A stretch of 34,138 bases of DNA from positions 1 through 34,138 of the forward strand of contig DATIKP010000019.1 in the NCBI GenBank assembly GCA_035477455.1. Reading direction: 5' to 3'. Below, in pieces: positions 788 through 28,548 of this stretch. Under the pieces are notes generated by a model that searched no databases, was not told the DNA's origin, and worked only from the letters and a program-made list of their open reading frames with translations. Made by a program: the position numbers and the translations under genes. Source of the stretch: Atribacteraceae bacterium (lineage in GTDB: Bacteria; Atribacterota; Atribacteria; Atribacterales; Atribacteraceae). The number at the start of each line of letters is the position of its first letter. The stretch's first letter is position 1.

Positions 788-1114
788 ATGCACAACGAAA
801 TCCAAAAAGTTCTCGATGAAGTGAAGCATCGAATTGTTTCCAGATTCCAGCCCCAACGCATTATTCTTTTCGGGTCTTATGCCGGAGACAAACCCGGACC
901 GGACAGCGACCTTGACATTCTTGTCGTCATGGAAGTGAAGGGCTCCACCAGGCAGAAGGCAAATGAAATTGATCTGCTGATGGCAGACCGGATCGTTCCA
1001 ATGGATTTTATCGTATTGACACCCGAACAATACGAACAACAGAAAAACATTATCGGTACGATGGTACGACAGGCCGACCGGGAAGGAAAGGTGATCTATG
1101 AACGCGCCGCCTGA
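788..1114 (+). CDS. MNT-type nucleotidyltransferase, antitoxin of an MNT/HEPN pair
   Basis: This 108-residue protein has the minimal nucleotidyltransferase signature. GS is at residues 29-30 in ILFGSYAGD and the metal-binding pair is D41 and D43 in DSDLDILV. Size and motif fit the stand-alone MNT proteins encoded with HEPN partners. In studied pairs the MNT protein neutralises its HEPN partner by adding AMP units; that activity is taken from the family. An AGAGGT ribosome-binding site lies just upstream of the ATG. The gene overlaps the start of the HEPN gene by 17 bases, so translation is probably coupled. Confidence 0.85.
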   Translation: MHNEIQKVLDEVKHRIVSRFQPQRIILFGSYAGDKPGPDSDLDILVVMEVKGSTRQKANEIDLLMADRIVPMDFIVLTPEQYEQQKNIIGTMVRQADREGKVIYERAA

Positions 1115-2330
1115 GATTAAGGCCGAAATTCAGCGATGGGTTAATAAGGCGGAAAATGATTTTCGCAATGCCGAATACGTCTTGACCCTGGAGGAAAACT
1201 GTCCTTTCGACACGGTGGCTTATCACTGCCAGCAATGCGCGGAAAAATATCTGAAGGCAGTTTTGATTTGGCGGGGCGTGGAGTTTCCAAGAACTCATGA
1301 CCTGGTCGTGCTTTTCAACTTGCTGCAAAAAACGGAGCCATTACCTCTTCGTGTGGAGAATGTGCAGCCACTCAATCGCTACTCGATCGAAGCGCGTTAT
1401 CCCGGCAACTGGGAACCGATTGACGAAGGCGAAGCCCGGGCCGCATTTGAAATGGTAAAAAGAATCAGGGAAGCGGTCAGAGCACGATTGCTTCCGGTAG
1501 TTACAGCGACACCGGACACGAGGTGTTCCTCGGGCTGCGACCTGTCGCCGACGGAAGGGCCTGACATGAACGGACCCCCGCCGCGCTTCTGGCCGATCTT
1601 TTTCGAGGTATTCGAGGCGCTGCCCCGACAAGGTCCGGGCAACCGCACCTGTGCTGTCAAGGCGCTCGCCCTGTGTCGCGATCTGCCGCCTGCGCCCGTG
1701 GTGCTTGATCTGGGATGCGGCGTCGGCGGGCAGACCCTCCATCTCGCCGGACTCACATCAGGAACCATCGTTGCCGTGGACAGCCACGTTCCGAGTATCG
1801 AGCGATTGCGCGCGGCGGTCGCCGAGCTTGGGCTCACGAAACGAGTTTCGCTGGTGGTCGGCGACATGGCCAACCTTGGGCTATCGCCTGCGAGCTTCGA
1901 CCTCGTCTGGTCCGAGGGGGCGCTCTACAATATCGGCATCGAGAACGCCCTGCGTGTCTGCCACAAGCTGTTGCGTCCCGGTGGCTACCTCGCCTTCACC
2001 GACGCGGTCTGGCGCAAAGAGAACCCGCCGCCCGAGGTCAAAGCGAGCTTCGACTTGGACTACCCGACCATGGGCCGAGTCCCCGACGTCCTGGCGGCGA
2101 TCGAGAGCTGCGGTTTCTCGCTCATAAGCCACTTCACCCTGCCGGACGAGGCGTGGTGGGATGATTTTTACACGCCGATGCAAAGCCGCATCGAGGAACT
2201 CCGCGGCAGATACGCGGGCGACGGCGAAGCGCTCGCCGTGCTTGATCAGCTCGCGCAGGAGCCCGAGATGCATAAGAGGCACTCGGACTACTACGCCTAT
2301 GAGTTCTTCGTGGTGCGCCGGGTGGAGTGA
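1098..2330 (+). CDS. HEPN domain fused to a class I SAM-dependent methyltransferase
   Basis: The 410-residue frame joins two unrelated domains. Residues 8-130 are a HEPN domain with the typical YHCQQCAEKYLKA helix (about 42-54) and RTHDL at 65-69; a canonical R-X4-6-H pair is not obvious. Residues 157-410 form a Rossmann methyltransferase with motif I VLDLGCGVGG at 202-211 and a later LRPGGYLAF strand. It resembles the compact methyltransferases starting near PRFWPIFFEVFEALPRQGPG. The joining segment, about residues 132-156, looks like non-domain sequence. The ATG at residue 157 (base 1566) is preceded by a GGAAGGG-like site, so the methyltransferase could also be made alone. GC content rises clearly in the second half. 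Either this is a true fusion, or a HEPN gene lost its stop codon by recombination. Confidence 0.8.
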   Translation: MNAPPEIKAEIQRWVNKAENDFRNAEYVLTLEENCPFDTVAYHCQQCAEKYLKAVLIWRGVEFPRTHDLVVLFNLLQKTEPLPLRVENVQPLNRYSIEARYPGNWEPIDEGEARAAFEMVKRIREAVRARLLPVVTATPDTRCSSGCDLSPTEGPDMNGPPPRFWPIFFEVFEALPRQGPGNRTCAVKALALCRDLPPAPVVLDLGCGVGGQTLHLAGLTSGTIVAVDSHVPSIERLRAAVAELGLTKRVSLVVGDMANLGLSPASFDLVWSEGALYNIGIENALRVCHKLLRPGGYLAFTDAVWRKENPPPEVKASFDLDYPTMGRVPDVLAAIESCGFSLISHFTLPDEAWWDDFYTPMQSRIEELRGRYAGDGEALAVLDQLAQEPEMHKRHSDYYAYEFFVVRRVE

Positions 2331-2379
2331 ATGAACCGGAAATAGAGTTACCCTCAAAACTTGGGTATAGCCAAATCTG

Positions 2380-2810
2380 AGCGAACTCCTCCGGGAAGAG
2401 AAGCCCGCAGACTGCTGGTCATAGCCGGGAAGCGGCAGGGGAGGAGTTTATAGTCCCACACCACGCTACCCGGGTGGCGGAATTGGAGAAAGGATGGGGG
2501 AAAGGCCTTTCCCCCCAGACGATGGCCGGCTGAGGGCCCGCTGGAAGAGGAGTTCACCGCCTGGAGAAAAAGAGATCTTTCCCGGAAACGTTACGTCTCC
2601 TGGTAGGGGGACGGGGTGTACCTGCCTGCCGGCAGGCAGGCCTGAACGCCCGACTTGGAAAAGAAGACCGGTGGGTTGGTGAGTAGCGGGGCTACCTGAG
2701 ACGGGCAAAAAGAACTTTTGAGCCGGGAAGACGGCTACCGGGAAAGTGCACAATCCTGGAAAGAAGTCCTCCTGGCTTTGAAAAGGCGAGACTTTGCCCT
2801 TGGCAAGTTC
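2380..2810 (+). ncRNA. candidate structured RNA, about 400 nt, unassigned
   Basis: No convincing gene lies between 2331 and 3093, but local inverted repeats are unusually dense. AACTCCTCC (2384-2392) pairs with GGAGGAGTT (2440-2448). There is a 20-base palindrome at 2496-2515 and another at about 2621-2640 (cctgcctgccggcaggcagg). Short stems GTAGC/GCTAC and AGCCG/CGGCT follow near 2690-2735, and TTGCC/GGCAA near 2796-2808. Purine-rich unpaired stretches (GGGAAG, GAGAAA, GGAAAC) favour the plus strand. I could not match it to RNase P RNA, tmRNA, SRP RNA or group II intron domain V. It could also be a decayed mobile element, and the boundaries are approximate. Confidence 0.35.
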
Positions 2811-3093
2811 TGATTTGCAAGATCTGAGATTGCGAACATCAGGGCGCGTTATCCATAATCTGAATTATAATCCACGCTTGATTTATATGTGGGTTTTGTT
2901 ACAATTTACTCATCAGTTGCGTGGACGTTGCCGGTAAAGATAGAATGAACGTCTAAGAGCATGATAGTTGGACAGGCGGTGGAATGCCTTCAGACGGGGG
3001 AAACAATCATCGCTGAGTTGGTATGCCGATACTACATTCCCGCACAAGAAGCCGGGTGCGAGTGGATGTGATGAGTCGCGTGAGGTGTGACCC

Positions 3094-3747
3094 GTGTTGT
3101 TGATCGAATCCCAGCAGACCGAAGGGCGGACAGACACCCTTGGGGAGAAACTCAAGGTCCTGATTGGCAATTTGCCACCAACAGGTGTGACGTTAGCCGC
3201 GATTCGCGACCTGGTCGGACAGGACGGCTTACTGGTTCTGGCAGCTTTCCTTACGATTGTCTTTATGGTGCCCATCTCGATTCCGGGTGTCAGCACCGTC
3301 TTTGGAGCCGCGATCCTGCTCATCGGTATCAGTCTTCTCTTCGACCGCAACGTGTGGTTACCGAAACGTATCGCACAGCGCATCCTGTCAGCCGACAAAC
3401 TAAGGGCAGCATTTAGCCGGGGAGGCACATGGCTCCATGTACTGGAGCGTATAAGTCGCCCTCATCGCCTGAACTGGCTTGTCTACACGCGGCTGGCGCA
3501 GATTGTGAACAGCTGCGCTTTCATTGCCGGAGCAGTCCTGCTCATGCTACCGTCTGGACTGATCCCCTTCAGCAATACTTTACCTGCCCTCGCTCTATTA
3601 TTTTTCTCCATCGGCCTTTTGCAGCGCGACGGTCTTTGCGTCCTTTATGGGCATCTTCTGAACCTGGCTACGCTCATCTACTTTGTCTTTCTTGTGTTCG
3701 GTGGCGGCGCAGCCATTCGTGAGGCGTTGCGGCAACTGATGAACTAA
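3094..3747 (+). CDS. ExoD-family integral membrane protein
   Basis: This 217-residue protein starts at GTG 3094, directly after an in-frame TGA at 3088, so no earlier start is possible. The N-terminal third is soluble and begins with a conserved-looking LGEKLKVLIGNLPPTGVTLA segment. At least four hydrophobic segments follow (about residues 46-85, 135-155, 160-180 and 185-205), separated by a charged loop with WLPKRIAQRIL. Length and layout fit the ExoD/exopolysaccharide-synthesis family. The biochemical role of that family is poorly defined; its name comes from a rhizobial exopolysaccharide mutant. The gene stands alone, with the candidate structured RNA upstream and a convergent methyltransferase gene downstream. 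Confidence 0.7.
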   Translation: MLLIESQQTEGRTDTLGEKLKVLIGNLPPTGVTLAAIRDLVGQDGLLVLAAFLTIVFMVPISIPGVSTVFGAAILLIGISLLFDRNVWLPKRIAQRILSADKLRAAFSRGGTWLHVLERISRPHRLNWLVYTRLAQIVNSCAFIAGAVLLMLPSGLIPFSNTLPALALLFFSIGLLQRDGLCVLYGHLLNLATLIYFVFLVFGGGAAIREALRQLMN

Positions 3748-28155: not shown

Positions 28156-28232
28156 GCCCCCATCGTCTAGCTTGGTAAGGACACCGCCCTTTCAAGGCGG
28201 CGACAGCGGTTCAAATCCGCTTGGGGGCGCCA
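28156..28232 (+). tRNA. tRNA-Glu (anticodon UUC)
   Basis: The acceptor stem GCCCCCA/TGGGGGC, the anticodon loop CTTTCAA with anticodon TTC, the T loop GGTTCAAATCC and encoded CCA at 28230-28232 are all present. A run of seven T follows directly and could end transcription. Confidence 0.96.
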
Positions 28233-28305
28233 TTTTTTTATCGGGGTTTTTTAAAGCGGCAATTTTAATATCGTCACAACCAGAGTTGCCAGAAAGATGG
28301 ATTTG

Positions 28306-28334
28306 TTGTAAAATCCCGTTGTCGATGGTACAAT
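28306..28334 (+). promoter_or_regulatory. promoter of the tRNA-Thr/tRNA-Lys genes
   Basis: TTGTAA (28306-28311), 17 bases and TACAAT (28329-28334), with TG one base ahead of the -10, lie 22 bases before tRNA-Thr. The extended -10 is the same as that at 21227. Confidence 0.5.
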
Positions 28335-28356
28335 TCCGTTGCCGTATCGCTAAGGG

Positions 28357-28432
28357 GCCGGTGTAGCTCAATTGGCAGAGCAGCGGAATCGTAATCCGCA
28401 GGTTGTCCGTTCAAGTCGGATCGCCGGCTCCA
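28357..28432 (+). tRNA. tRNA-Thr (anticodon CGU)
   Basis: The acceptor stem GCCGGTG/CGCCGGC, the anticodon stem GCGGA/TCCGC around loop ATCGTAA (anticodon CGT), and encoded CCA at 28430-28432 are present. Position 32 of the loop is A, slightly unusual. It is read with tRNA-Lys 40 bases downstream. Confidence 0.95.
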
Positions 28433-28472
28433 CATAAGATCGGGATAAGTCGATAAGTCGTTCAAATACGGT

Positions 28473-28548
28473 GGGCCATTAGCTCAGTTGGTAGAGCACC
28501 GGACTTTTAATCCGGGTGTCGAAGGTTCGAATCCTTCATGGCTCACCA
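28473..28548 (+). tRNA. tRNA-Lys (anticodon UUU)
   Basis: The acceptor stem GGGCCAT/ATGGCTC (one G-U), D arm AGCTCAGTTGGTAGAGC, loop CTTTTAA (anticodon TTT) and encoded CCA at 28546-28548 are all present. Confidence 0.96.

Follow-up and report, generated by a model that had tools for sequence, protein, structure and literature searches.

HEPN proteins of the PF05168 family that are paired with minimal nucleotidyltransferases (MNT) of the PF01909 family have been described as Class II HEPN/MNT modules, defined by a GSX10DXD motif in the MNT and a HEPN without RX4HXY, and no biochemical study of them was available by then (PMC7641770). In type VII MntA-HepT systems (Class I), the HEPN belongs to PF01934/PF08780 and carries RX4HXY; it acts as a toxin, which the MNT neutralizes by nucleotidylation. 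Alternative residues have been noted for the PF05168-type HEPN family (PMC3710099), and fusions to nucleic acid methylases are on record for HEPN-M, a different HEPN family (PMC3710099, Table 1).

Here, we analyzed a locus of an Atribacteraceae bacterium in which an MNT gene overlaps by 17 nt an open reading frame of 410 aa (1098 to 2330) encoding a HEPN domain followed by a methyltransferase (MTase2). The window, i.e., the whole stretch of DNA analyzed, is the 34,138-nt contig DATIKP010000019.1 of assembly GCA_035477455.1 (forward strand). An initial annotation had interpreted the locus as an MNT antitoxin with a HEPN toxin fused in frame to the methyltransferase, and had proposed either a three-part toxin-antitoxin system or a recombination that removed the HEPN stop.

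The layout given in that annotation was correct. Both domains are whole in the 410-codon frame as judged from the ORF and the Pfam matches, zero stops lie between them, and the coordinates and motif I were accurate. Likewise, the methyltransferase half is richer in GC (about 0.65, against about 0.50 before the junction), and the internal ATG at 1566 (residue 157) has a ribosome-binding-like GGAAGGG just 5' of it. The linker corresponds approximately to residues 132 to 156. All features are listed in Table 1.

Table 1. Features of the fused locus, in window coordinates
Feature	Position	Strand	Description
MNT (minimal nucleotidyltransferase) gene	788..1114	+	108 aa; NTP_transf_2; GSX10DXD motif
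HEPN gene body, residues 1-134, own stop lost	1098..1499	+	PF05168; homologue lengths
HEPN gene/methyltransferase locus junction	1500..1502		Start of DNA match to six relatives
MTase1 remnant	1502..1564	+	Final 20 codons of MTase1, YSDTGHEVFLGLRPVADGRA, with the stop TGA; frame differs from HEPN
MTase2, complete class I SAM methyltransferase	1566..2330	+	254 aa; own ATG; ribosome-binding-like GGAAGGG
Decayed IS256-family (Mutator-type transposase) remnant, abutting the methyltransferase end	2345..2788	+	Terminal and internal IS matches

The HEPN belongs to a Class II MNT-HEPN pair

The MNT matched NTP_transf_2 (PF01909, 1.1e-10) and kept GSX10DXD, its motif GSYAGDKPGPDSDLD being located at residue 29, and the HEPN matched PF05168 over residues 12 to 128 (5.4e-26). 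We searched the HEPN part of the frame for an R-X4-6-H motif and found it to be absent; H67 and R100 were invariant across 31 aligned sequences. The pair thus has the composition of a Class II module, with a PF05168 HEPN beside a PF01909 MNT, the MNT gene coming first and overlapping, GSX10DXD in the MNT and no RX4HXY in the HEPN. However, the HEPN of such modules is typically, though not by strict definition, a stand-alone protein of about 130 to 150 aa, whereas the one in the window has no stop and continues into the methyltransferase to give 410 aa. Gene order and the nucleotidyltransferase partner are also those of type VII MntA-HepT, but the window HEPN is of PF05168 rather than PF01934/PF08780 and is without the RX4HXY of HepT. 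Furthermore, the MNT reached 30 bits with the MntA NCBIfam model, whose cut-off is 60. As the HEPN is of the PF05168, or Class II, type without R-X4-6-H, its initial designation as a toxin is unproven, and toxin activity is a possibility rather than a result. The same genome harbors a second MNT-HEPN pair (L137, G000:C17, match near 1419-1763), whose HEPN is about 33% identical and of normal length.

We then read the HEPN homologues, which were at most 49% identical, to their stops. Most ended 3 to 16 residues past the equivalent of window residue 131, and a few had longer tails. This is in good agreement with the earlier statement that HEPN partners of MNT proteins normally have about 130 residues, the homologues being about 130 to 150 aa long. 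The longest open frame among the HEPN matches besides the window had 248 codons. An MNT gene lay directly upstream of nearly all homologues examined, and MTase2 was present in none of the HEPN loci examined.

Almost all MTase2 relatives are stand-alone enzymes

The second half of the frame matched Methyltransf_25 at residues 201 to 300 (9.3e-17), with motif I, VLDLGCGVGG, starting at residue 202. Motif I and a Rossmann-type domain with solved relatives identify it as a class I SAM-dependent methyltransferase. These relatives (PDB 3t7r, 3e7p, 3kkz, and 3f4k) align end to end with MTase2, over approximately residues 16 to 251 of its 254 aa and with E values down to 5.5e-46, but they are separate stand-alone proteins.

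Scanning the contigs of 84,980 species with exact peptide patterns, an approach that a distant fusion could escape, we retained the best 80 methyltransferase loci, which were about 58 to 88% identical and came from many phyla. Such a spread over unrelated phyla suggests frequent horizontal transfer or, else, mis-binned contigs. The tblastn matches of these loci started mostly at or near residue 157, which corresponds to the ATG at 1566, and almost all were stand-alone genes starting at or near this position. Directly upstream of the methyltransferase we found a GNAT acetyltransferase gene in 13 of the 80 and another methyltransferase gene, MTase1, in 8, and a HEPN or MNT match in none (0/80).

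The initial annotation had suggested looking for the same fusion in other genomes, with separate genes throughout speaking against it. Homologues of both halves proved to be separate genes. An association of HEPN and MTase2 was not found among the best 80 loci of the contig scan nor in sets of 61 and 386 genomes; plasmids gave no match with 80% coverage, and viral contigs contained none. The same architecture was therefore not recovered from any other genome in these collections. HEPN-M-methylase proteins also combine a HEPN and a methylase within one protein, but they involve another HEPN family and nucleic acid methylase domains, going by their published description.

Several loci deserve mention on their own. 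At L026:131-1576, a GNAT acetyltransferase and an MTase2 relative share one open frame (481 codons); here, too, the methyltransferase seems to have been joined to a gene upstream of it. The methyltransferase match is broken at one position in L066 (2996), and L068 has two match pieces about 385 bp apart (1065-1451). Distant relatives of the methyltransferase (27 to 32%) appear under MerR family regulator annotations in plasmid records, e.g., NZ_CP045340.1 and NZ_CP063315.1.

The linker is the tail of another gene read out of frame

DNA identity to the methyltransferase loci begins at 1501 for L005 and at 1502 for L012, L013, L016, L066, and L068. In all six relatives, the stretch that precedes the methyltransferase ATG is the 3' end of MTase1. 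In L005, L013, and L068 it closes a long MTase1 frame, and that of L013 matched Methyltransf_25 (3.6e-10). The corresponding DNA of the window can be read in two ways, as YSDTGHEVFLGLRPVADGRA followed by a stop in the MTase1 frame and as TATPDTRCSSGCDLSPTEGPD in the HEPN frame. In the former, all 17 residues compared with L013 MTase1 were identical, and the three base differences in the first 17 codons were all silent and at third positions. The 53 differences from the six relatives were distributed 17/10/26 over positions 1/2/3 of the MTase1 frame; since they fall mostly at third positions, we identified the stretch as MTase1 sequence. The substitution pattern in this remnant does not by itself date the junction.

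Because the linker DNA is an MTase1 tail read out of frame, residues 136 to 156 have no history as a linker. All of MTase1 has gone from the window except this tail and its stop. This agrees with the second proposal of the initial annotation, a recombination that removed the HEPN stop. In L006 (1-215), MTase1 sequence likewise breaks off with the MTase2 start region directly after it, most of MTase1 being lost; this independent parallel supports the view that the junction is accidental. The MTase1 frame of L012 (3511-4062) looks reduced, with 183 aa versus about 257.

To obtain the fusion, a join must leave 22 codons open in the linker frame, counted back from the MTase2 start. This was so in six of the seven relatives with this tail (L004, L012, L013, L016, L066, and L068) and not in L005. 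Given a one-in-three chance of the correct phase, somewhere between a quarter and a third of random joins would be open, an estimate of our own that is based on few sequences. The open frame is thus no more than a random join would readily give.

The fused frame is probably a recombination scar

On the other side of MTase2, homology to the closest methyltransferase loci stops at 2337-2339. Positions 2345-2376 are the terminal 32 bp of an insertion sequence (IS), an end found about 20 times across the genome, often close to the edge of a contig (L147-L161), and 2379-2788 matches internal IS DNA at 65 to 85%. A less damaged copy (L158) encodes a Mutator-type transposase (PF00872, 1.2e-49). The methyltransferase piece looks like acquired DNA, flanked by the MNT-HEPN pair on one side and by an old IS on the other.

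We consider it probable (about 0.76) that the 410-residue frame results from an accidental junction of two unrelated genes, a recombination scar in phase by chance. Several observations argue for this: methyltransferase relatives are separate genes from about the ATG at 1566, with no HEPN or MNT match in any of the 80 loci; HEPN relatives stop shortly past residue 131 and lack MTase2; upstream of the ATG, identity to the MTase1-MTase2 loci reaches 1501-1502 and no further; the linker reads as the MTase1 C-terminus in another frame; an open frame is expected in about a quarter of random joins; and on its other edge the methyltransferase adjoins a decayed IS whose family has about 20 copies. From the homology, its boundaries, and the frames, we infer that the Class II pair (788 to about 1500) was joined to the right portion of a mobile MTase1-MTase2 locus, by deletion or other illegitimate recombination at about base 1500. 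The HEPN stop and nearly all of MTase1 would have been lost in this event, leaving a HEPN frame that reads the remaining MTase1 codons out of frame and, by chance, shares the phase of MTase2. MTase2 is most likely still translated from its own ATG at 1566. Some fused product may arise too, and its domains would then fold separately, presumably with no evolved joint function. Against this reading, the window is the sole sequence found with the junction. Moreover, the frame is still open and neither domain is truncated, as would also be the case in a functional fusion, and the GNAT-MTase2 frame of L026 shows that other N-terminal domains can become attached to this methyltransferase elsewhere.

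The main rival is an assembly or binning chimera, in which the HEPN and methyltransferase sides come from different molecules misjoined at about 1500. The genome is fragmented (174 contigs) and probably stems from a metagenome assembly, the GC content changes in a step where the two sides meet, the closest methyltransferase relatives among the best 80 loci occur in assorted other lineages, and the searches gave no independent example of the junction. However, positions 1440-1640 occur just once in the genome, so that no repeat was there to mislead an assembler, and on its other side the methyltransferase abuts an IS remnant of a family repeated in the same genome. We therefore hold a chimera to be unlikely and real recombination to be the likelier origin.

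The functional three-part system of the initial annotation, in which methylation would modify a target or control the pair, has in its favor the complete, in-frame domains and the precedent of the HEPN-M fusions. Yet the association is absent from relatives of either half, the linker is what is left of a gene, read out of frame, the methyltransferase can be aligned end to end with stand-alone enzymes, and this type of HEPN is not a demonstrated toxin. Such a system is not supported and very improbable, although the open frame itself is present in the sequence. It is hardly to be expected, too, that the MNT-HEPN pair captured the methyltransferase as a very recent, lineage-specific, and expressed fusion. 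A functional fusion would link methylation to MNT-HEPN modules, and nothing that we found points there. Instead, this case shows that a GC-rich gene tail read out of frame can yield a long open fusion by chance, and comparing the linker frame with relatives decides the question.

Other features of the window

Region 2331-3090 at first resembled a structured RNA or a novel repeat, a reading that we rejected because a decayed IS256-type element makes up its first half. No RNA element was found at or downstream of the junction, the only Rfam matches being tRNAs at 28 kb; these are three clustered tRNA genes, all on the + strand (28156-28545). An ExoD-family protein is encoded at 3094-3747 (PF06055, 9.6e-47).
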